This document shows positions 1-55,202 of a DNA stretch of 64,000 nucleotides, one piece after another (position 1 is the stretch's first letter; each line of letters starts with the position of its first letter). A program made the position numbers and the translations under genes. The stretch is from Polytrichum commune (taxonomy: Eukaryota > Streptophyta > Polytrichopsida > Polytrichales > Polytrichaceae), in contig OX485803.1 in the NCBI GenBank assembly GCA_950295325.1, positions 52,281,554-52,345,553 of the forward strand, written 5' to 3'. Below the pieces are notes generated by a model. That model was not told where the DNA came from. It did no database searches and was given only the letters and a program-made list of their open reading frames with translations.

Positions 1-2146
1 GTGAGCTGACAATCTCAGTACAGTACTGTTGCCACTTTTCTACATATCATTGAAAAACAAAACACATAAAAACATTAATTTTTAATAAAACATAACATAA
101 TATGAAATTACATAACATCGGCCAAACCAACCCAACCCACTCTTGCCTGCCATGGCATTGAATATCAGCATGTGCGCCGTTTGCTCATGTGTAGACGTGA
201 TTAAGAAATTGGAGAAACTGGTTTAAGTATGCGGCGCGTTTCATAGTACTGTATTATTCTGGAGCTTTTAACTTACCTCGGGTGCAACCTGCCTTGGAGT
301 CAGAAGAGTGGTAACTTAAGCTATCGTGTACATGTTGCAGACTCGTGTGTAAGTATGAAGGCACACAATCTTGATGTGTTTGCCATGGCCATGGCCATCA
401 TGTGGGTGTGTGGAGAGGAATTAGGTAACCCACTAGTCGCTGTAGGTTTTGCAGGTTGGGTGAGGGGGGTTCCTGGACTGGTTCAAACCGATCGATCTGT
501 GGCGAAGAGTATAACTTCGGAGAGCTGAATTGGTTCGTTTCTAACTTACACCACACCTACATAATCCTCCCGTGTGTCTGCACGAATTTGAGCCCAGGAA
601 GCTCCGAAGAATTGCTGCATCAGCCATTTTTGCAAGAAAATGTTAGTACAAATCTGCACTACAGCCTTGGAATGAAGCTCAAACCGTGTGGGCCCTTTGC
701 CCTGTTCATGTGAACGAATTCTCCTGTCCCTCATAATGGTCACCTTCAAAATCTCTGTAGGTGTTGATGATGTGGTTTGGGGTGTAATTCTTGCTGTAGA
801 ATAGGAGAATTAGCTTCACTCTCTGGCTCTCCATGCATCTCTTGTCCAATTATGATGATGATGGTGGTGGGACTGACTGTCCCCATGTGAGACATTATAC
901 CGGTGAATTTGATAGGTCCGTTGTACTACTTGTATGAGTGGCGGGAGTCAGAGAGGGTTTGGCAAATGTCTTTGTGTGCTCAACTGGCCGGAAACGTGTG
1001 TACAGGAAAGATGAAAAATCATTTTTACTCATTTTTCTCTTTGGATGACCTATTTTGGTGATGTGGTCAAGAGCATTAGTGCCCAGTTGTGTGGGGCATT
1101 GTCTGGGGAGGTCGGTGAGTGATTCTAAATCTATGTTCTTGAAGAGATGAACTCAGACCACCCTAAGAATTTCCTCAAGAAAAGCCCCCGAAGTTGTGCT
1201 TGGGCGGTAATTGCTTTGGGCGCACCGAAATATAGTTCAGAGACAAAAAGACGGATCTTTGAATCGTTTTAACGTGGAAGCATGACCTTCACTGGAAACG
1301 TGTACCAGGTTGAACTTGGGCTTATCCCTGTGGCCGGTCTTCACAAATTCCTATGTCATTATGCGAGTCTGCCGAATTGGGGTTTTGTGACTGCTGCCGA
1401 ATCCACTATAGGTAAGACTATATACATACAAGATTCTTGTCCACTAGATAAATAGCCACCTATTTTACAGGCGGCGGCGATTCAATTGATGTTTGACTGA
1501 TCGTCGATATTTCTTGTTTGCAGCCATGGCGACATCATATGCCTTGTTTCAAACGAGTAGCCCACGAACTGTCCATAAGTGTGTATGTCGCACATGTGAG
1601 TGAAGAATGCTGCGTAGTGAGTGACCAACCTTGTTCTGCATGGAACAGTCACAACCTACAGCATCTTCATAAAGTGTGAGTGGATGAGCCAAAAAATCAC
1701 TCAGGAAACAATTCTGCAAAGTTGTCCCTTCACCGAATGAGTAAGCTGAATTTGAGGGAGTATTCCTGATGTCTGTTGGCTGCTGCTGAGAAAAAAACAT
1801 CTTCTTTGCAATTCATCAACCCGCCATGTATTGATCAAAACAGTATGACTTGGGATTGTGTGCAGATGAAGCCCTGAGAATTTGACTTTCGCCAAGGGCA
1901 GCTTAATTTGGAGTGGCTTACATTTCATGGGGTCTCTTGGTATGGAAACCTACATCCTGGAACAGCGAAGGTGGTGTCCGGCTGAACAGAGGAGATTTTC
2001 CATAGCACATCAGTTGGACTCAATTCTTTGTTCTCAAGTTAAATTGGGTTTTGTTAGAACCTCCAACTGCAGTCGAGAAGTTCTGGTAGTTGGAGTATGA
2101 ATGGTTGGTGGGTTCAACATTTGTTTATTGTGACTGTGGGGACAAT
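1..2146. other. Upstream region of the fucosyltransferase gene, no supported coding sequence
   Basis: I see no open frame here with family resemblance. A plausible leader intron runs from about 1411 (a GTAAG donor) to about 1523 (pyrimidine-rich tract ending in GCAG), and a TATA-like stretch (CTATATACAT) lies near 1418. These could belong to the promoter or 5' untranslated region of the downstream gene. The ATGGCC trinucleotide-like run near 384-400 is a short local repeat. No transposon ends were recognised. Confidence 0.3.
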
Positions 2147-3811
2147 ATGGATCAAGAGGGGCAACCAGTTTGCAAGATGATGAGCCCAGAGCATCACAGC
2201 AGGAGCAGCAAAACACTCTTCAGAAGCCCAAGTATAACTCGTGCGGCATTTGGGATGACTTTGAGCTCACTGCTTGCAATAGGAGTACTTATGCGCATGG
2301 AATTGCCACACATGACCTGGCCAGCTAATAACATCCATCATCATGAGTCGACAGTTCACATCGTGTCCGCACCACGTTTTGGCCCAAGGCCACTCCAAGC
2401 ACTGGAACTTGAGGAGATTAAGTACTCAGATCATGATTCCACTTGCTTGAGCAGGGTGCAACAAAACTGGTTCAGAAGAAATGAGCAGCAACATCCCATG
2501 TCACAAAGTTTGGAGCAGGCACTTGCAAACTACACACATACTGTGCATTCTCGATGTTCGACTGCTGCATTTTTTGAGAATTATGATGATGTCATGAAGA
2601 GTAGTAGTAGTAATGGATGTCAGTTTCTGCTTTACTATGAAGGCTATGAAGGTGTTGGCAACAGGCTGTTATCACTGGTATCTGCTTTTGCTTATGCACT
2701 GGTGACGCGGCGAGCATTGGTTGTTGATCCAAGAAAGGGTCATCTCTCCCAGCTTTTATGTGAGCCATTTCAAAACTCATCATGGCTCATCCCACCTCAT
2801 GTTGGGGACAGAGTGGTTCAGAAGGCAGTGACTCTGGAGGAGGCTGGGAATCAAAGGTTTGTGAACATAAGTTCTGTACGAATCAACATGAGACACGAAC
2901 AAACGGAGGGGGACGAGAAGTTTTTCTGCACAGAGTCCCAGCAAGACTTGCAGAATGTGACATGGCTAGTGTGGGAGAGCAACCAGTACTACGTGCCACG
3001 CCTATTTATGTTACCCGATTTCTGGCTTGTGTTGCGTCCTCTGTTTCCTGATGTGTCTCTCGTGTTTACACAGCTTAGCAGGTTCTTATGTCTTCCACAG
3101 AACGCAGTGTGGGACAAAATTAGACATGTTGAATCACATCTTGCTTCTTCAAGTGTTCAAGTGGGAGTGCAAGTGCGGCGACACAGCGTCCCCGACAATG
3201 CCAGCTTCTCTGCCCCTGTGCACAAGCTGATCATGAGCTGCTTACTTGACCATCAAATTCTTCCTAAACTCCCTGCCTTGCCTCGAAGCATTTTGATGAG
3301 CTTCGGATCACAATTGAAACCAAAACCAAAACCAAAGGTTGCGGTTTTGGTCACTTCTTTACGAAGCTATTACTTTGAGAAGATGAAGGAGATTTACACT
3401 GGGAAGAGTACTGAGGATGGAAGTGAAGTGACTTTCCACATGGTGAGCAAGGAGGGCATGGAGCAATATTCTTATGATCAAGCTGAGAAAGCTTTTGTGG
3501 AGATGTGGCTTCTCAGTTTCAGTGATAAGCTGGCAACTAGCAGTTGGTCAACATTTGGATATGTCGCGCAAGCCCTCGGAGGGTTACATCCATACATTCT
3601 GAATATTCGCGGCATGTCTCCTGAACCAAATCGTCCACCATGTACCATAGCCCAATCTAGAGAACCATGTCTGCAATATCCACATGTGAATCCTTCCGTG
3701 TGCACGAGTTGTCGATTGACGCCTGATCACAAAGATTGGGTTACACGACACATCAGACCATGTCAGGATGAAACCAGGGGCCTGCAGTTGTGCTCCTCCA
3801 GTTTAGTTTGA
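2147..3811 (+). CDS. FUT: Xyloglucan/arabinogalactan-type fucosyltransferase, GT37 family
   Basis: Encodes 554 residues, the usual length of plant GT37 fucosyltransferases, which transfer L-fucose from GDP-fucose to wall polysaccharides or arabinogalactan proteins in the Golgi. Seen: a short basic cytosolic tail and one membrane anchor at about residues 33-49 (type II topology); the YEGxEGVGNRLLSLVSAFAYAL block at 165-184; the GVQVRR nucleotide-sugar motif at 340-345; VLVTSLRSYYFEKMKEIY at 400-417; EMWLLSFSDKLATSSWSTFG at 452-471 followed by YVAQALGGL; and a C-terminal cysteine cluster at 499-522. All blocks are in the family order. The frame is open further upstream to 2090, but 2147 is the first ATG and leaves a proper anchor. 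No intron interrupts the frame, whereas many angiosperm relatives have one. A lysine-proline run (KPKPKPK, 391-397) is unusual. The acceptor specificity cannot be read from sequence. Confidence 0.93.
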   Translation: MDQEGQPVCKMMSPEHHSRSSKTLFRSPSITRAAFGMTLSSLLAIGVLMRMELPHMTWPANNIHHHESTVHIVSAPRFGPRPLQALELEEIKYSDHDSTCLSRVQQNWFRRNEQQHPMSQSLEQALANYTHTVHSRCSTAAFFENYDDVMKSSSSNGCQFLLYYEGYEGVGNRLLSLVSAFAYALVTRRALVVDPRKGHLSQLLCEPFQNSSWLIPPHVGDRVVQKAVTLEEAGNQRFVNISSVRINMRHEQTEGDEKFFCTESQQDLQNVTWLVWESNQYYVPRLFMLPDFWLVLRPLFPDVSLVFTQLSRFLCLPQNAVWDKIRHVESHLASSSVQVGVQVRRHSVPDNASFSAPVHKLIMSCLLDHQILPKLPALPRSILMSFGSQLKPKPKPKVAVLVTSLRSYYFEKMKEIYTGKSTEDGSEVTFHMVSKEGMEQYSYDQAEKAFVEMWLLSFSDKLATSSWSTFGYVAQALGGLHPYILNIRGMSPEPNRPPCTIAQSREPCLQYPHVNPSVCTSCRLTPDHKDWVTRHIRPCQDETRGLQLCSSSLV

Positions 3812-25131: not shown

Positions 25132-25410
25132 GATCTCCGTAATTTAGTGCTACGAGCGTTTCTAAGACGCCTCCCGTGGGCATCGTTAAGGCTTGGGCAA
25201 CCCGTTCCTGTCCTCCCACCCTGACCCGTCCTGCCTACTCGACCTAACCTTCCTGCCCGGGTCCGCCTTCATGCCTGACCCGGCCTTCTGTCCGTCTAGC
25301 CCCACACACCCACACACCCCCACCCCCGAACCCTCTCTCTGTCAATTCTTCCTCCCACACGCCGCAAGACAACTTCGGAGCTCCTCAACACCTGTCCAAG
25401 CTAGACGGGG
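25132..25410 (+). repeat. Left TIR of the Mutator-like element
   Basis: Aligns with the complement of 33395-33644 and then of 32222-32264, through CGCAAGACAACTTCGGAG and CCTCAACACCTGTC. Much more GC-rich than its surroundings, with CCTGCC/GACCCG-like subrepeats. Confidence 0.85.
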
Positions 25411-26689
25411 CAAAGAGGTTGCAGCGGAGGTTGCTGGGGCTGGGTGGGGAGGAGAGGGTGGTGCGGAGGTTGCTAGAGTTGGGAGAAGAGGAGGAGCAGA
25501 GGGTGTTGGAGTTGGAGTTGGAGCTGAAATTTGTCTTTGTCGGTCCATGATCCATGACACTTTAGGGAGCAACACAGGGGGGATACTACATTGTTATTCC
25601 TTTTTTTTGCAGATCAACAAGTCATGACATGTGAACACCTTCTTGCTCATCATTTTTTTGTGGGTTCATTTTCTTGTGCATTGTGTGCTTGTGAGGTTCT
25701 GATTGATGGAGCAGCCATGAATTGGGATGAGAGTATTGCGCATGCCAGTCTCTTGTGGTCCTCACTAAATTTCTCAAGAGTGACAAGAAATTAGGGTTGG
25801 TAATAATGATTCATGATTACTTGAAAAGATTATGTAACCACCTCTAATTTTAGTTCACCATTTTATGAGAATGCAAAGACATTCATTCATTCTAGTTGTT
25901 TGAACTTTGGTCACTCAAACTTTTGAGTCTCAAATCGTCATTAGCAAGGTATTCAACCTTTGTTTTAGAAACTTTGGACATCATTGAAAAGTCTTTTCTC
26001 AAAAGCTAAGGGGAGTGGTAGGGCTTAGGATAGGGCATCCCTTGCGGAAAGATAAACACAACTTTTTTTTGTTGTTTTATAGTCACTGCCACGAACTACA
26101 CCTCAATCACAAGCGTTTGAAATGGGGTAGACCCTAACATGACTCTTTGCTGCACATATCTTGTGTGCACCTGTTGGTAAGTAGACCTCGAGCACTAGGG
26201 AAATCCTGGTTAGTTTATTTTCCTCCCCTTAGTAATGTGATGATTTCTAGGAGCTGGGAGGTTTTTGCATTCCTGGATATGGAAGTTCCTTTAATTTGCA
26301 CTTTGAATTATTTGTAGATTATAAGGGCAGGGAACCTCGCATTGATTTTGTATTTTGCAGCAGGTTTAGATTTTGCAACCTTCAAATTTGTGTGTTGTGG
26401 TGGGAGTTCTTTCCAGCAACTGGAGAAGGACTCCCATTTGCAACAATGACAACATGATTGCGAAGGTAAGATCATATAGGATTTTCATTTTTCCTTCAAG
26501 TTTAGGTTTTTTTTTAAGTTTCTTCATTTCTTTTTCATCGCTTTCATACATGTTGTCATAGCCCAATGCATATCTTCCTTTATGTTATCAATGCATTTAA
26601 TGAGGGTTTTCAATACATATTTAAGGTTATTATGGTTTAAAGGAACATCCTCATCATTTTGCAATGTCTAGGACGTTGATCGTAAGGGT

Positions 26690-29519
26690 TCTAACCAATC
26701 TACCTTATTATATTGGAAATTTGTTGAATTTTTGAGAGAGCAAATTACCATCCTTGACTACACCTCTCTTGACAAATTTGGCAATGACCTGCTCGATGTA
26801 GCTACAGCTGGCATCGTCCCTGGGGTTTGTAACCTCTTCCATGTTTTGTCATTTTCTTATTTGTTCAGGTGTTTTGGGTCATAGTAGGGGTGTCATTTAC
26901 TATGTGTCATACGCTAAACAATGATTTTGTCTGTCATATTTTGTGGGATTCAACTACTCATACCTAAGCAGACCGGTGAGCTGGAGAAGGTTATTTTATA
27001 CATGACTTTCTGGACAGAAAAACCGAGGATGAGGGAAACGTACATCATATCTGAGTTTGAATGGATGGTGGTGAAGGTTAATGCTCTTTGGAGGAGGAAA
27101 CACATGATACTCAACATGAAGTCGAAGAGGATCATTTTTTTTTTGCCGCCTTTGCAATAAGGACATGGTCAATAAATTTGAGTTTGCATGTCATAGGCAA
27201 CAATATTTTTGTCCTATGTATGACGTTGTGAAGGATAGGCCTTTGAAGATGTTCCCAGTTAATGGCAGCAAAGGTAACTCGAAGATAACAACTATTTAAA
27301 AAATATATAATATGAAGTTGCCTTGGTAAAATGGTGGGGAGAGGCCTATAGGGGAACCTTCGGTAAAAAAATGTTGAGAATGAGGATGTGGTTAATTTGA
27401 GCAACGATGCATCTAGTGGTGACAATGTATCAATGTTGGAACCAACTATCAAAAAGAGAAAGGTTAGGAAGTCATTTCATGAGGAGTTGCAAGACATGAG
27501 GATACGCTCGGACATATAGACCTAAGACATGGTGGTAATCGAGAGGAAAGACAAGGATAAGTACAAGGACAAGGGAAAAAATCGTGTTGAGCGTGAATGA
27601 GGACCTTATGAGGGGTCCAGAACTAGTACATCTCAAGGTTCCGGAGCTCCTAGGCCATCTCCTGCTCGGACTTCATGCGGTACACCTCAAGATTTGGTCG
27701 GTCGGAATCCCTCCCTTTCTTGGAATGAAATCAATAAACCAACAAGGCAGAGTGCGCGGCCAGGGGATAAAATGACAACCATCGGTTTTTCTGAACCTGT
27801 AGATGTTATGCCTCCGCTTCCAGTGCACCGTAGGCGTGAATTATCAAACATGTTGTGGATAAAGATACGAAAAAAGTTTCCAGACTCCGACCTATGAAAA
27901 TTGCCAAAGAAACCATCTAAGGTCCATGTTTTACATAGCATAGTTGAGCAAACAAGTGACATTATCGACTTGGACCTTCTCCATTGCAAAGATAAGTCCA
28001 AGGACACAATCTTAACCTTGTATGCAAATGGGCTTTTGGAAAAGAAGGTCTTCAATGCTTGGAGGGCATTCTCCATGGACCCTGCAATCAGGCTATAACT
28101 TACCAATGTCTTCTTACATTTTTTTTTTTTTATTATTTGTTAATTCTTAATATGTCATAGTTAATGATGGACTAGGACAAATGTTGTATAGGGTTGTTTT
28201 CTCTTCTCTAGACTAACTCATGTTTGTTGTGACTTAAAATACGACCTTCCAATGCCGGTATATGAGGCAACAAAACAGTATTTGAAAGCATTCCGTAAGA
28301 AAAACGAGAATCTCATGAAGGATGAGATCGCCGCGTTTATTCGTCATCATTATGTTATGCATGCTTACAACCAACTGTTAGATGTTTGGTAAGTGTTTGT
28401 GGCTACCTTGAAGAAGAACATGACAACATACGTTGCCGAAAAGCTTAAGAGGTATGATCGAGAGATAATCCTAGAGGCCGAGGCTCAAGTGTGGCGTTGG
28501 TCACCATTGCATCTAAAGCTCCTAGAGAAACCGGTTCCTGATTTTTGCAGCTTCCATGCCAATACAATGAAGAAGAGTTTCAAGATATTATAGCGTGGAT
28601 AAGAGTAGAGTGTCACCGCCTAGAAAATAAAGTTGATCCTCCTGTTTTTGTGAGAGCTTTATAATTATTATGTCGTCATTTCAATGGTGTGGAAGCACCA
28701 TTGATCTGCATTCTAATGGGAGTATCATCTAGTATTATATATGATAGGATGACACATGTGAAGTTGGCCATGAAGGACTTCTCAACGTTTGGTCGGCTTG
28801 TTCTTCTTTCTATGGCAACCGATTCTAAGGATTTTGCTGCGTACTTGGAAGTTATAACTATAGGTAATGGGTTCGACTCCATGCAAGCCAAGGCCTACTC
28901 TTGGATGACGATTTATTTCTGGAACGCATGGTTGGACATGTTGGCTCTTGACAAAGAGGATAATCTTCGTGTCATGTGGTTGGAGGCGTTGAAGGACAGG
29001 CGAGATAAGACACTTAAGTTGTTCTGCCGAGTTATGTTACTTAGAGAGTCTTTTGATACTCAGTATGCGCTAGGGTGGTTGGACTGCACAAATGATTGGA
29101 TAACCGTGCCAACAGATATGGTTCAAGTGACAAAGGACATGAGAGGGGCCTCCATGAAGTTTTGCGGTGACAAGCTCATCGCATTGAGTGCAAGAGAGAG
29201 TGGCGCATTTTATTTGGCCGATTTGGAAGGATAGAAGCTAGATAATCTTGGTGCATTGCAAATATTGTCAACTATACCAAACCTTGGAGATTGTGCGCCT
29301 TCACTCAACACCAAAATATGTATCATGAAGGGCGCGGAAGATACGATGATAGTCAGTCCAATGAAAGAAGAGGTTAAAGGAAAAAAACACTATGGCGAGG
29401 ATAAGATACAAATTTCCGATATGGAAGACGAGTGCAATGCAAGCGTTGATAACATTGTGGAGTGCAGTGCTATTTCTTGGAGCAATGGTTTAGGACATCA
29501 CTATAAGACAGGGCAATAA
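26690..29519 (+). pseudogene. Unrecognised gene of the Mutator-like element, broken
   Basis: A chain of coding-like segments in one direction: about 26700-26820 (WKFVEFLREQITILDYTSLD), 26971-27135 (LEKVILYMTFW, EFEWMVVKVNALWRRK), 27411-27897, 27904-28098 (HVLHSIVEQTSDIIDLDLLH), 28252-28590 and 28600-29518. In-frame stops occur at about 28390, 29232 and elsewhere, and the frame shifts between 28590 and 28689. The best part, 28689-29234, reads 181 residues (FNGVEAPLICILMG through SGAFYLADLEG), rich in Leu, Met, Asp and Lys, with WMTIYFWNAWLDMLAL in the middle. I recognise no domain and no DDE triad. Its position, convergent to a transposase, parallels mudrB, but there is no visible similarity to claim that. 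Some gaps may be introns (a GTAAG lies at 28389). Confidence 0.5.
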
Positions 29520-30399
29520 CTAGGATATGGAAGAACCATGACATGTTCACTAAGAATGACACATGAATATTGTTATATTGGCCCCTACCAATTTTCAATA
29601 AAATGTGATATTGTTTGTTGAATTTGGAATGTAAGTTGAACTTCGGCAATTGAGAATGTTACCTTAAAAAATTTAGGAAATCAAAATCAAAATCGTCTTG
29701 AAAAATGAAAGCCAAATAACTAATCAAAAGTGTATAATTATAAATGTTGTAAGTAGAGGACAATGATAATAGATGTTTCTGAAGGACAACAAGCAATTTA
29801 GTAGAATATAATTGGACAAACACAATATTGTTGTCCTAAAAAGATATTATGCCTTCTTCATTGAATTCAGTAATGTTCCAACGTGTCTTATGAGTGTCAT
29901 ATATCAATTTATACAACATCCGTTATTTTCGGTGTCGTCCTAACATATTCCAAACATGTCATATGATCGTAAACCCCAAACATATGTAATTCCTAGTTTG
30001 ATGTAAATATCTTTCATTTCTTGCCAATATTACACACCTTTTGCCTAGAATGCTTCAAAAAACTGGGATGTCGTCTTGTGTTATTGTCGCACTCACCGGG
30101 CTCAAACTATGGTTGTGATAATGGATGTAATAATCTTGCTTGGGATTTAGCTTGTTTGTCAAATATTTAACCTCTGACATTGTTCATATTTGGCAAGGGC
30201 AAATGGTATCAACGCCGTCTCTTGATTGACCAAGGATTCTAATCGCGCAGTCCCTCTAGTAACATTTGGAATTGGTTGTGTACACTACTTCGTTCTACAT
30301 TTGTAGTAGGGTGCATATTTTCGCCATCTCCAGTATTCACCATCTTACCTCTTTGAAACGTGTGAATAGCAGAGTTGTTAGTTCCACTCTCCATGATAC

Positions 30400-32222
30400 C
30401 CTTCAATGTATCGGTATGACTTATAATGAGAGTGTCTTCAACTTTTGGATAAAATTATTTTAAAAACCTTCATCGTATATTTGCAAATGTTGCCTCGCAT
30501 TCCCATAGGACATTCACACTGTGCCCAAGTGGAATTTGAACATGAGTTGTCAACAATCGCTAATTCTAGGTGCCAACCTGGCTAGATAGTATATCAATGA
30601 GCATTGAATTTGTCAAGTCATGGCAAAATGTCTTTCTCCTTTGACTTGCCAACTATGACGAAGGCAATTGGGTTACCATTCTCCCATCTGTCAAACACCA
30701 TGATTGTATACAAAAAATATTGTAACAAAAAAGAATGACAGATAGTAAGGACCACAAGAAGGCGTGGACTTGTTATAGGATAGTGGAAGCATGGTGACAG
30801 GTGCGACAAATGTAATTAGTATAAAATATGACAAAAGGCGTGGCAAACCTTGGGTTCATTCGTTCCGTATGTTGCGTCCATTGCGCTTTGTCTCTTGTGT
30901 CCATATTGCATAATCATCTCCAATTGCCATGGTGTTTGAATGGTCAAGGAAAATGGTGTTTCTTCCTCGTGCTGCTTTGTTCAAATTAATATTCCCAAAC
31001 TCATGGTAATGAAAGATGTTGTCCTTACTTTCTTCTTTTCACATACAAACGCTTAGAGGGTCTCGTGAATGTTTTTGCCACAATTTTGTAGCACACTTCT
31101 TACATATATTATACACATCATCGGGCATGATAAATGTATCCCGAGTACATGGCATTTTTGCAATAGCACATTCCCATACCTCTCTCTTGTGAGAAGCTAT
31201 GATTTGAGCTGGGAAATTTTTTTGCCCTAACATATATCGAATCCATTTTTTTGTTCGCCAAGACAGTCGGCACTTAGCGAATGCCTAAAGCCAGTGAGGG
31301 AACTACCATGACAGGGTTGTCCGACCTTGTTGAAATGGTTAATTTCATGATACTAAATTTTGCATAAAGTATTGTCCATATACAATTGCTTCACCAAAAA
31401 ATCACATTGGCATCCTTGCTTGGATGTTAGACTGGCTTGCAATCTACTTGCCCTCCTTTGCTTTGTGGGTCCTATTGGCAGTGGTAGCCCTGTTAGAGAT
31501 GTAGGACAACTTGTATCATACTCTAAAACTGAAGAAACAACTGGGACAAGTAAAGGTGGAACAAGAGGTGTCTTTCTACTTCTGCGCTCTTCCGTCTTCT
31601 TGGCATCTAAGGCAACTTGCTTCACAGATTCCTTCTCAGCCTTTTTGTTTTACTTCTCAACCCATTTCTTGGTTTTTTTTTGGTTTGTAGATAGTTTTGA
31701 CTTCAAAACACTCACAAATATCTTGTTCACCTCCTTATTCGCCTCACTTGTCCTATCTATTGGTCCGTACTCGCAATGGAATCTATTGCATAAACCATAT
31801 ATTCATGAGAACAATCCACAAAAACAGTCCAATATCGTGGATAACCTTAAAACCCTAAACCCTATTCATCAAAATGCAAACTTCAAGTTATTTAATTGAC
31901 AGGACATGGTGCAACTTACTTAATCTTTTGCAAGAAGCTTATTTTTTCGCATTCTTCGCAATACCTTCCTTGTGCCTTAAATTGTAAACCTCATTGAATG
32001 CGCACGGAAAATCTCGCATACTCTGCTCACCAACAACAAATTTTTGGAGCATGTTCCAAGGAATTATGGCTTTGCATGTATTCCTGCTCCTACCTCGTCC
32101 ATGGTTGATTTTCTCCACCCAATAAATGTCAGTCCTGTCAAAGGGCCTGGGGGTGGGATCTGTAACTTTGTCCGCATATTTTTGAGAGTGACATCCCTAA
32201 CCATAAACTAGCAATATGGCGC
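30400..32222 (-). pseudogene. MULE-type transposase with SWIM zinc finger, broken
   Basis: Read on the minus strand from right to left. Segments in family order: VKQLYMDNTLCKI and NHFNKVGQPCHG followed by GFRHSL (31300-31420); DVYNICKKCATKLWQKHSRD then PLSVCM (31039-31130); DNIFHYHEFGNINLNKAARG (about 30950-31020); MVFDRWENGNPIAFVIVGKS followed by DILPW (about 30610-30710), the strand carrying a DDE-region aspartate; and the SWIM motif CECPMGMRGNICKY (about 30480-30530). In SWIM fingers the last ligand is His; here it is Tyr. Frameshifts and stops separate the segments, so this copy is dead. A leading segment with TDIYWVEKINHGRGRSRNTC (about 32110-32160) is of unknown role. Sequence identity to the family is my recollection of the motif order, not a search. 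Confidence 0.75.
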
Positions 32223-32264
32223 CTTCGATAGGTGTTGAGGAACTCCAGAGTTGTCTTGCGGCGT

Positions 32265-33390
32265 TGTCGTAATGTAAATACGTACACTATATAGATGTGT
32301 ACTTATTTAGTATTGCATTGTGATTCTTTGATTTGGAGGAAAGTAAAAGGAATAGAAATAGATTACCTTCTTGTTTACTCTTAGTTTACCCTTTTAGTCT
32401 TACTTCTAGTTTTATTCTTAGTTTACTTTTGGACCAATGGGTGATTAGAAGCCCATGTGATGAGGATAAGAAGGGGACTTTGTCTCTCTCATATGGGGAG
32501 TAGAGAAAAGGTTGTAGTAGAGAAGATGGTGTGGTAGAAAGGAGGTTGTTGTGGAGAAGAGGGGTTTTTTTTGGAAGCTCATGGTGTGTGAGTTTATGGG
32601 AATTTTGAAATAAAATATGAAGGAGTTGTGTTTCATGGTGTTGTTTCTCTAGAGTAATCTCATTTGCTTGATTTGAAGTTAGCAATTAAAAGCTGTACTA
32701 GTTTGAGTGAAGGGAGGTCTGTTGGCTCTTATAAAGAAAGGCTAAGACTTCGACCGACCATAGAAGATGGACATGTCTTTTGTTTGCAACGAAACTTTGA
32801 GGAAGTATAGTACTTATTGTTAGCTTTCTGTAAAGATATCAGTTGCTCAATTTGACGTTCATATGAAGACTTGAAGACTTGAAGACTTCTCAAGATCCAA
32901 GTGTGTTGTGACTTGTGGTTCGTTGTCCTTTCTATGATTCCCAACCGGATTTGGAGGCTAGTCGCATTTGACATTTTTGCATCGTAAATTTGTTGCGGGT
33001 TCTATGGAAATTTTTCAAAGCCCCATTTCATGTTTGTGACAACAAAGTGGGATTGTTGACCCATAAGGTTGTTTTCTGTTGTTCCCATTGGTGAGGCACG
33101 ATTGCTGGTCATTGTGGGTTTGAAAGTTTAGGAGCCAATCTTTCGGACGTCAACTCGTGATCTGACGTCCCATTTTACCCGTCTGAGGCATGTGGTTTCT
33201 TATCACCCTACCCTTACCCTTAACCCATTTAGAGCCGCAACAGGATAGGCCGACGGGAAAGAGTTTGAAGATTTGAAGAAATTGAAGACCGAGACTCTTG
33301 AAGACCAGAAGATTCGACGGTCCGACAAACAAATCTAGTTGCAGCCAAAAGCCCAGTGTTTTCCCAAGGCGGAGCCCTCTCTACCCGACA
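32265..33390. mobile_element. Solo LTR (1126 bp) inside the right TIR
   Basis: Begins TGTCGTAATG and ends CTACCCGACA, i.e. TG...CA with TGTCG/CGACA inverted ends, and is flanked by GCGT at 32261-32264 and 33391-33394. The left TIR of the host element preserves the empty site with a single GCGT, which proves insertion. A TATA-like CTTATAAAG at about 32728 suggests a plus-strand orientation, and GAAGACTT is repeated three times near 32872-32888. No internal retroelement sequence remains, as expected after LTR-LTR recombination. Confidence 0.85.
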
Positions 33391-33644
33391 GCGTGTGGGA
33401 GGAAGAATGACAGAGAAAGGGTTCGGGTGGAGGGGGGGGGGGCTGGACAGACGACTAATGGACGGACATAAGGCCGGGTTGTGCAGGAATGCAAACACGG
33501 GCATGCAAGCCAGGTCGGGCAAGCATGACGGGTCAGGGAGGAAGGACGGGTTGGGGGAGGGAGGACATGAACGGGCTGCTCGAGCCTAAACGCTGCCCGC
33601 GGGAGGCGTCCTAGAAACGCTCGTAGCACTAAACTACAGAGATC
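33391..33644 (-). repeat. Right TIR (outer part) of the Mutator-like element
   Basis: Complement of the left TIR; contains a G homopolymer run near 33431-33441 and the GC-rich subterminal zone. The inner 43 bp were displaced to 32222-32264 by the LTR. Confidence 0.85.
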
Positions 33645-48915: not shown

Positions 48916-50945
48916 TTAGGGTACTTCCTCAAGTGCATCATCAAATGCCCCAGACAAATAGCGCTTTGGATTGCTATACAAATAGCAAAACTTAGCAGCA
49001 TCCTTCCAAAGATCTAGAGCACTTGTTAGAATGTCATCAAAATCATTGTCTGGGCCTTCTATAGCAACACGCATCATACTTTTTAAGTTAGATGTAGACA
49101 TTCGATTACAAAGTTTTTGTTTAATAGTATTTTGAACAGAAAGCGGCCTTTCACATGTTGCAGTACTCACACATTGGCACTTAGCAATCTCAGCAAGAAT
49201 CAGAAGGTTTAAATACTTCATTTTCAAAGATGGAGACCAAGAAATTGATGTCCATACATCTGCAAAAGTAAGATCCATCCACTCTGTACTTCCTTGTATC
49301 TTGAAAGCAAAAAACTCTTGCTTACACAGTGTTGCATTCACCAACGGAGGAAGGACTTAAACTCCTTGCATTTTTTGTACACCGTATTGCTACAACAACC
49401 TATCCAACTCCACAACACCCCAAGAAGCCAAACCTACTTGTCTACGAGGCATGTGTAAAGGATTAAAATTTTTAAAACAATCTATAATGTCATTATCAAC
49501 AAAACTTGCCTCTAAAGCACTACAAACCACTTTAGAATAAGTTTTTTGAAAGTCCAAAGGACTCTCTAAGTCACGACCCAAAAGATCCCGAATCAAGTCT
49601 ATAGAATGAAACTTAGAACCTCTAATTTCACTTGATAAGCGTTGTAGATATCCAGATGGAGGCCCAAATTGGGGTAGAATAGAAAATCCACTAGAATAAT
49701 TAAAGGTGTCTTGATTTAAATCACATAAATCCATAACAAAACACATTCTAATGGTTGTAATTTCCGATTTTACAATAGATCCTATAGAAGAAATATCAAC
49801 TAGTTTTTGTTGGAATATCTTAGACAATTTTGCTAACATAGATAGGATATCTGCTAAAAAATACAAAACATATATGTACTTAAAATCCCTTAGTTTTTCA
49901 AACATACAGGCATTGGAGGCATCACCTCTCCCATCACGAAAAAACAGACAAACTGATTCTAAAGAATCACATACAATTGTAATTGATTCCCACCAAGATA
50001 ACCATATAATTTTATGGTATCTTTTAAGAGTTTTTTTAGCATCATTAAATTCTTTTTGTAATGATTGCAAAACACATTTCTTTTTATATGATTTTTTAAA
50101 ATGAGAAGCCAAATTATTGTTCAAAGTGTCAATTTCAATGGACAATTCCTTACATGATGGATTTTTTGAAGCTTCTAAAGCGGCTAAATTGGTCCTATGA
50201 GCTATACAATGGGTTGAGGTTATGAAGGGACTTACCTTTTTCAACAAGGTTGCAACATCATTATTATTTCCAACCATGGTAGATGCCCCATCGGAACCAA
50301 AACCAAAACACCTTGTTATGTCTAATCCCCATGTCTTCACCGCAATCATGAGGGTCTAAAAAATCTTCATAGAATCCTTTTAACCTTCTTCAATGCACAA
50401 TAAACCACGGAAACAAGTAATAGGCAAATAACCCTTTAAAAAAGTAGCAAATACAACAAGATGCTATATTACCAAAACATCGGTTGATTCGTTAATCATT
50501 AAACCAAAAAAAAAAAAAAATCTCTCACCCCATCTAAAATATTTCTTGTGATAACACAAGAGATAGCAAAACCATCTCAGAATATGTTTTCTCATCATGA
50601 TAAAGCCTCTCAGGCAGAAGGGTTTTACAAGACAACAACAAAGCGCACAAAGATGAAAACTTGTGAAATAACACACCTTCCTTACCTATGAAATATGCCG
50701 CTCTAAATAAACATATCATGGTTACATCACAAAGCCAATTAACCGAGGTCACTTGTTTTTTTGAAGTTTGTTTTCCTCCAAACTTTGCACATATTAGTTT
50801 TTTATATTCTATTGATTCTGCATGATCTTATAACTCTAAGATTTTAATATTTGATGATCCATCTGTGACATACACATATTTGCCTCCTTTTTTTTTACAA
50901 ATTTTACAGAAAACTCTTCCCAATTGTCTATAAAAGCGAACCCAA
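48916..50945 (-). pseudogene. hAT-superfamily transposase with TTF-type zinc finger, inactivated
   Basis: Minus strand. From the N-terminal side: a TTF-like zinc finger remnant (FCKICKKKGGKYVYVTDGSS, about 50850-50910), AAYFIGKEGVLFHKFSSL (50660-50710), the RNase H-like core FGSDGASTMVGNNNDVATLL (about 50240-50300) followed by THCIAHRTNLAALEASK, and the C-terminal dimerisation region CVSTATCERPLSVQNTIKQ then NRMSTSNLKSMMRVAIEGP (49050-49180). Two in-frame stops interrupt it at about 49390 and 49355, and others break the N-terminal half near 50350 and 50830. The domain order matches ZNF862/TTF-type hAT transposases. I could not identify its terminal repeats or 8-bp duplication, so element limits are unknown. 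Confidence 0.88.
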
Positions 50946-54470: not shown

Positions 54471-54551
54471 GTCAATTTGGCTGAGTGGTTGAGGGGTTAG
54501 ACTCGAAATCTGCTGGGGTTTCCCGTGCAGGTTGAAATCCTGCAGTTGACG
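54471..54551 (+). tRNA. tRNA-Ser(CGA)-like gene, T loop altered
   Basis: Eighty-one bases with acceptor arms GTCAATT and AGTTGAC, the serine-type GGCTGAGTGGTTGAGG D region, anticodon loop CTCGAAA (anticodon CGA), a serine-type long variable arm GGGGTTTCCC and the T stem GCAGG/CCTGC. The T loop reads TTGAAAT in place of the near-universal TTCGAAT, so box B is damaged, and the anticodon stem has only about four pairs. It may be a decaying copy. No CCA is encoded, as usual for nuclear tRNAs. Confidence 0.75.
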
Positions 54552-55202
54552 CCGAATTTGGACTTGAATGTAATCCTACTTTGAAGGTTTTTCCATACGT
54601 CTTCGAGCTGATTTTGATGCCTCACTTCATTAGAATAAGTTTGTGAGAGGTTGGTATCGATTACACATGCTATGAATATGATGCATTCAATTGCTTCTTT
54701 TGCCAGAGTCGTAGAGAATGACATCATCAACATCATTGGGGTTCTCAACCTCCTGTCAAATGGATCTTTAAACGATTGCCACACTTCTCAGTTAGAATCT
54801 CTTGATGAATGATAGTTCATTCAAGTGGAGCAGAATCATGAACTCTTTGAGAACTAAATGAGTGCCCATAAAGCAATAAATTGGTACCCTTCAAGCAACG
54901 CAGAATACGAAGTTTGTGAGTTGATGGTGCTCACCCTGGACAAAGCTCCTTTGGGGTCCCTGTTTGGATTGAATGCGTCTTTGAGTCTTGAAAGACTTAG
55001 TTCAGCTTATGTTTACACTTCCCTGAGCTCCGTGAACATTATTGCACAGATACACATATTTGATGTATTGAACAGGTTCCCAGATAGCATAATCCAATGT
55101 CCAGGCACTTATATTGGAAACTCTCCACTTGTTGACGTAAACATTATCTTTTTGGGACCAGTGCCAATGATCCACAGTGTACAAGTAGGAGTATTTAGGC
55201 TA
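54552..55202. other. Spacer without a recognised gene
   Basis: An open frame of 137 codons runs 54858-55271 but has no known motif and ends inside the next inverted-repeat element. A 25-bp segment here (CCAATGATCCACAGTG, 55169) recurs at 55552 on the other side of that element. Confidence 0.35.

Follow-up and report, generated by a model that had tools for sequence, protein, structure and literature searches.

A decayed two-gene Mutator-like element in Polytrichum commune and the gene that faces its transposase

The element in the window

We identified a decayed, single two-gene Mutator-like element (MULE) in Polytrichum commune, which occupies 8.5 kb (25132-33644) of the 64,000-nucleotide stretch of DNA that was analysed (the window). 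Self-comparison of the window revealed inverted arms at the ends of this span, with 25132-25221 matching 33555-33644 (88%) and 25207-25296 matching 33461-33550 (77%). The first-pass annotation had placed terminal inverted repeats (TIRs) of about 280 bp here, together with a MULE/SWIM transposase relic on the minus strand and a second, multi-segment gene convergent with it, and each of these features was recovered. The arms are real and measure about 269 bp, the right one being split by an insert; the transposase gene consists of four exons with frameshifts and stops; and the second gene, referred to here as the partner, consists of four plus-strand exons identified by homology that face the transposase. 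Gene models were derived from a near-intact relative (L011), in which the transposase has four exons (minus strand) and the partner at least four (plus strand). All eight exons of these models were found in the window, the partner running rightwards (E1, E2, E2b, E3) and the transposase leftwards in the order E4, E3, E2, E1 along the window. The features of the element are:

25132-25400, plus strand: left TIR, about 269 bp, starting with GATCTCCGTAATTTAGTGCTACGAGCG (self-comparison, full-length alignment, TIR family matches)
26454-26465, plus strand: putative first coding exon of the partner, ATG ATT GCG AAG followed by GT, proposed from the corresponding exons of L010 and L011
26672-26824, plus strand: partner E1 (51% to the L011 exon, E 3e-13)
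26951-27507, plus strand: partner E2 with the C2HC finger CRLCNKDMVNKFEFACHRQQYFC, frameshifted (E 2e-57)
27796-28095, plus strand: partner E2b, one stop (56%, E 9e-33)
28246-29288, plus strand: partner E3, conserved C-terminal region, broken (50-53%, E 4e-77)
30008-30545, minus strand: remnant of transposase E4, SWIM finger and C-terminus (matches to the exon of relatives)
30543-30719, minus strand: transposase E3, region of the second catalytic D, three stops (59%, E 1e-19)
30846-31790, minus strand: transposase E2, Cys/His-rich N-terminal region, with the first catalytic D in relatives, six stops (43%, E 5e-67)
31942-32201, minus strand: transposase E1 (59%, E 2e-27)
32223-32264, minus strand: inner part of the right TIR, severed by the insert (88% against 25359-25400)
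32265-33390, no strand assigned: insert of 1,126 bp, not MULE-derived, TG...CA, with a 4-bp ACGC duplication
33391-33644, minus strand: outer part of the right TIR (self-comparison, full-length alignment)

The 1,126 bp that interrupt the right TIR lie between two copies of ACGC and are repeated genome-wide (40 scored out of 320 candidates, the window included), with near-full-length relatives at 78-90%. This repetition, the TG...CA ends and the flanking ACGC pair suggest a solo-LTR-like insertion. Minus the insert the window element measures about 7.4 kb, close to the 7.2 kb of the near-intact copy. The TIR itself is a repeat family, with 40 matches scored of 94 candidates, 37 of which begin at the first base of the query. 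The two arms in the window are 74% alike (with gaps) compared to 78-79% between them and arms elsewhere, and their mutual kinship is not clearly closer. No target-site duplication was found at the window copy, the best agreement between its flanks being 4 of 9 bp compared to 1-7 in mismatched controls.

The relatives found in the genome belong to three lineages, of which lineage I is the window family. The MULE domain (PF10551) was detected in a lineage III locus (L063, a copy on contig C3) at 36.0 bits (cut-off 27.6), and the lineage I transposase exons are 31-47% identical to this locus. In a Pfam scan PF10551 did not match the exons of lineages I and II, in which the domain is split by introns. 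A SWIM finger following the catalytic core was recognized by pattern (CDCPMGMRGNICKH and similar) in L011, L062 and L063, and the Pfam SWIM family scored 19.0 bits in L011, slightly below its cut-off of 19.6. None of the eight window ORFs scanned against Pfam was explained by a family.

The transposase in the window lacks its core as well as carrying frameshifts and stops. With the exons of relatives as queries, residues 1-219 of transposase E4 were unmatched in the window; in the relatives this part contains the motifs CLWHVRKAW and TN(A/T)AIESYH. The E of YFEETW was considered as the catalytic glutamate and dropped, because it varies between the lineages. The E of TN(A/T)AIESYH, whose catalytic role we assume from MULE alignments, is likely the better candidate. 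Because both genes are broken and E4 residues 1-219 are unmatched, the window copy is not expected to transpose autonomously.

In several relatives the partner is encoded by single open frames of 656-784 residues. A C2HC finger of the form C-x2-C-x12-H-x4/5-C is present in 7 of 11 partner segments, with all three lineages represented; L018 and L023 carry a substituted ligand or a stop in the finger, and the segments of L016 and L022 stop short of it. The first-pass annotation had left the partner unassigned, and so it stays in the searches performed here. No VANC domain (DUF1985, DUF287), PMD or other Pfam family scored above cut-off in the members scanned, in searches that requested E values up to 10 and whose filters discard most matches above about 0.1. 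Weak matches to Baculo_IE-1, PB1, Syntrophin_4th and others were set aside as chance, because they fall below cut-off and each occurs in only one of eight aligned members. No convincing chain was found in PDB (best E 0.3 in one scan, none in another). Single-sequence AlphaFold models of two window partner pieces were uninformative (mean pLDDT 39.3 and 44.4). By the Pfam and PDB results, the partner family looks new.

Outside the element, the window contains a tRNA-Ser (CGA) at 54471-54553 on the plus strand (ARAGORN), a long minus-strand ORF at 49390-50355 that presumably represents a piece of a hAT-type transposase, and a long plus-strand ORF at 2090-3811 that we take to resemble a plant fucosyltransferase. 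Elsewhere in the genome, C5:1751760-1846160 holds 14 equal-scoring matches to the chlorophyll a/b-binding family (PF00504) within 95 kb, a large gene array. A chlorophyll-binding protein of this genome matches in PDB first the long chain 9vfj, in two stretches, and then, as the best matches over a single stretch, 8htu and 7xqp, entries of the moss Physcomitrium; the seven large contigs would likewise fit a polytrichaceous moss.

TIRs, duplications and gene order in related copies

The near-intact lineage I copy L011 (C1:42110217-42117408) is 7.2 kb long, has TIRs of 377 bp at 94.7% and is flanked by an exact 9-bp duplication, GTCCACCAT. Among 12 facing TIR pairs, exact 9-bp duplications were found in eight, a duplication matching at 8 of 9 bp in one and none in three, namely the window copy, L016 and one pair with inverted flanks. 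When ends from different copies were paired as a control (132 pairings), the best agreement was 7 of 9, reached once. All four lineage II and III copies carry duplications of 9-11 bp outside their TIRs, and TIR lengths across the three lineages range from 79 to 377 bp. That both genes belong to one mobile unit, and that the TIR pair bounds the transposase elsewhere, was thus borne out by L011 and the four copies of the two other lineages, in which TIRs and duplications of 9-11 bp enclose both genes. The duplications of 8-10 bp suggested by the first-pass annotation are present at these copies and at most TIR pairs, and absent from the window copy.

Many short copies retain pieces of one or both genes and resemble internal-deletion derivatives. 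One short TIR element (L036/L037, C4:14442049-14444189) has flanks that are inverted rather than direct, GTGGCATCTACG and CGTAGATGCCAC, which would fit outward extension of the inverted repeat or recombination of the element.

Linkage of the two genes was analyzed across the genome (408 Mb, 64 contigs), in which all matches lie on contigs C1-C7. Merging of the partner and transposase searches yielded 167 partner loci and 185 transposase loci. Within a radius of 10 kb, a transposase match lies convergent to the partner at 87 of the 167 partner loci, on the same strand at seven and divergent at none, and 73 are without a transposase match; random sites lie near a transposase match in 209 of 20,000 cases. 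Seen from the transposase, 87 of the 104 scored E4 loci (499 candidates) have a convergent partner, 17 have none found and no locus shows another arrangement, a count that includes the best 50 of 120 lineage III partner matches. These best 50 of 120 comprise 27 that are convergent, 22 without a transposase match and one divergent. The MuDR-like convergent layout proposed by the first-pass annotation is therefore the usual arrangement in the family, and in the search for relatives with the two genes in separate elements the pair proved to stay together, with a partner undetected at these 17 loci.

The complete convergent exon order is present in 7 of 10 loci (L009-L014 and L018) and also in L021-L023. 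The other three of those ten are L015 and L017, which are rearranged, and L016, which has the partner only. In L015 (2018-2657), L017 (2415-3685) and five further loci, transposase E1 lies near the partner on the same strand; the two of these seven same-strand cases that were inspected, L015 and L017, are rearranged short copies.

Three lineages, the Ulp1 link and selection on the partner

Lineage II is represented by C2:1680000-1692168 and a copy on C6, elements of about 12 kb with TIRs of 79 bp at 96% and duplications of 10 bp, the true length of which may be 9. Lineage III is represented by C5:50416926-50426901 and a copy on C1, elements of about 10 kb with TIRs of about 290 bp at 99.3% and duplications of 9 and up to 11 bp. 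A 324-residue exon of the lineage III facing gene is 100% identical in copies on C1, C3 and C5, and lineage III has therefore moved recently.

A BLAST search with lineage I exons as queries detected no partner in lineage III. A lineage I partner profile, however, aligned colinearly with the lineage III facing gene over 272 columns (E 5.8e-7, score 54.9), compared to scores of 12.2-17.8 (E 0.2-0.8) for four unrelated proteins used as a control. The same profile matched the lineage II partner with E 5.3e-22 and a score of 165, a match that is partly internal to the profile because the profile includes one fragment of the L026 type, which is counted under lineage II. The partners of the three lineages are about 20-22% identical and occupy the same place, in the same direction, in each.

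In lineage II the partner ORF has 660 residues, and downstream of it, in the same orientation, lies an Ulp1-like protease. The Peptidase_C48 family scored 23.0 bits in lineage II (cut-off 20.7) and 24.6 in L027; in L026 it reached 14.8 bits, below the cut-off. The Ulp1 residues H, D, Q and C are aligned in three members, including L026 and L027. From 152 C48 matches in the genome, 62 were chosen, namely the 51 that scored best plus 11 weaker L026-type matches. Among these chosen matches, 58 adjoin a same-strand partner and four are without one near, and in each of the 50 cases with both neighbours the C48 match is placed between partner and transposase. C48 queries did not find Ulp1 at 11 lineage I loci (the window, L009-L014, L018 and L021-L023), nor was it found at the one lineage III locus scanned (L063).

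Substitution rates were compared between elements. The partner has a dN/dS of 0.12-0.32 in nine lineage II pairs (dS 0.05-1.5) and the transposase 0.05-0.26 in nine pairs, pairs that are not independent of each other; most lineage I pairs were saturated at synonymous sites, and the sole usable one gave 0.33 for the partner and 0.22 for the transposase. Over 11 elements the mean identity is 54% for the partner compared to 73% for the transposase, indicating that the partner evolves faster. Partner and transposase distances among the same 11 elements are correlated (Mantel r 0.89, reached in 0 of 9,999 permutations). Judged from these gene sequences, the conserved position, purifying selection and co-divergence establish the partner as a selected component of this MULE clade that is inherited with the transposase.

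Relation to known elements and the role of the partner

The minus-strand gene would encode a DDE transposase of the MULE kind, with two catalytic D residues and a likely E, a Cys/His-rich N-terminal region and a SWIM finger near the C-terminus. This enzyme would cut at the long TIRs and insert with a 9-bp stagger, as the duplications and the known behaviour of MULEs suggest. The facing gene would encode an accessory protein containing a single C2HC finger and, towards its C-terminus, a conserved region; in lineage II a predicted Ulp1 (C48) protease lies downstream of it on the same strand.

In MuDR of maize (mudrA/mudrB) the second gene faces the transposase gene. The elements described here share with MuDR this facing second gene, a SWIM-bearing MULE transposase, long TIRs and 9-bp duplications; the partner, however, would be several times longer than MURB and matched no family. 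A second gene antisense to the transposase is known in other MULEs (PMC6446971, Table 1; PMC2528002). MULE groups 47-50 are similar in that the second gene is often antisense to a SWIM transposase, duplications are 9 bp and TIRs span a similar range (PMC6446971, Table 1); they differ in having a PMD, which none of the partners scanned here has, and in being from flowering plants with a Phytophthora sub-group. The transposase domain, the TIRs and the 9-bp duplications all identify these elements as MULEs, and the proposal in the first-pass annotation of an undescribed type of transposon is not supported.

VANC, the accessory protein of Arabidopsis VANDAL elements, triggers loss of methylation at its own elements and shows lower conservation than the accompanying transposase; a subset of VANC genes, termed KIU, bears Ulp1 (PMC5735166, PMC13317346). 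A faster-evolving accessory gene is thus shared between the elements studied here and VANDAL/Hiun elements with VANC (PMC13317346, PMC2528002, PMC5735166). In the Kaonashi (KIU) MULEs of Arabidopsis an Ulp1 domain lies opposite the transposase (PMC13317346, PMC2528002, PMC5735166), and the same is seen here, in lineage II only. KI-MULEs likewise have ULP regions opposite the transposase, and in grapevine, melon and rice such regions occur in either orientation (PMC2528002). By contrast, neither DUF1985 nor DUF287 matched the partners scanned, and most VANDALs are without TIRs or carry short, degenerate ones, although Table 1 of PMC6446971 gives 46-174 bp for the VANDAL group; the TIRs found here are 79-377 bp long. 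The capture of Ulp1 by KIU elements has been dated to the split of monocots and eudicots (PMC13317346), whereas the host here is a moss.

Non-coding tandem repeats were observed in several relatives. In the lineage I copy L010 about 950 bp (L010:3853-4810) of a short unit like GGGGCCCCAAGTGCTACAACT lie between the convergent genes, lineage II has repeats of 221 bp x 3.2 and 102 bp x 3, and lineage III has 97 bp x 3; the window copy and L011 contain short tandem repeats only. VANC targets are tandem repeats (PMC5735166), and the resemblance may serve as a lead.

We are fairly confident that the locus is best explained as a dead two-gene MULE whose partner gene is a selected component of its clade, the role of the partner being a matter of comparison with known systems. 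The possibility that the locus combines two elements, unrelated or nested, and that its TIR pair is coincidental, is negligible: the window copy has no duplication and its arms are only 74% alike with gaps, but its exon order matches that of copies bounded by TIRs and duplications, and coincidence is refuted for the family by L011 and by the copies of lineages II and III, leaving it as a faint chance for the window copy alone. It is also very improbable that the partner was picked up from the host as Pack-MULE cargo and plays no part in the element. Host fragments are common in MULEs (PMC6446971), and the partner is without a Pfam or PDB match; against this stand its presence at the same place and in the same direction in three lineages at about 20-22% identity and the purifying selection between elements. 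No host-gene source was seen among the partner loci inspected, which include at most some of the 73 (out of 167) that have no transposase match within 10 kb.

Two roles were weighed for a partner that belongs to the element. As a co-factor of transposition or integration like MURB or MutB, it would act by binding the transposase or the DNA of the TIRs or subterminal regions, would be required for integration and would not be involved in silencing. The convergent layout shared with MuDR, the co-divergence of partner and transposase, and the C2HC finger, which suggests nucleic-acid binding, fit such a role. mudrB has, moreover, been reported to be apparently needed for integration (PMC6446971). 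The size difference from MURB noted above argues against it, however, as does the Ulp1 linkage of lineage II, which is closer to KIU/VANC genes, and on balance we consider a pure co-factor somewhat unlikely. Tentatively, and with less than even confidence, we propose instead that the partner recognizes the elements of its own family and opposes their silencing by the host in the manner of VANC/KIU, or otherwise licenses transcription, because a finger protein in the neighbourhood of Ulp1 fits the VANC/KIU pattern. A bolder extension, which we regard as doubtful, is that MULEs of three deep lineages in a bryophyte encode, as the partner, an ancient anti-silencing protein of modular build, in which the finger and the conserved region are optionally joined by Ulp1.

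Both the kind of transposon and its layout are known. The features that appear new are the family to which the partner belongs, the occurrence of this family in three lineages and, in a bryophyte, its form linked to Ulp1. Among the titles and abstract openings listed in a literature search, with few subscription papers, no moss MULE with a facing second gene was seen, and Physcomitrella and Selaginella do not occur in the 2019 MULE survey (PMC6446971). The second genes of MULEs are an old puzzle, mudrB being known from maize and VANC from Arabidopsis, each seemingly local. In the elements described here, three deeply diverged lineages have a gene of one unassigned family at the same position; selection acts on it, its divergence follows that of the transposase, and near-identical copies must have moved recently. 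What such a second gene does thus becomes testable in a plant group for which no study of the question was seen in the literature search. If the Ulp1-bearing form is homologous to the KIU genes, the link with Ulp1 would be far older. If the partner is indeed an ancient anti-silencing protein, MULE anti-silencing with an optional SUMO-protease module would be ancestral in land plants and not an invention of flowering plants.
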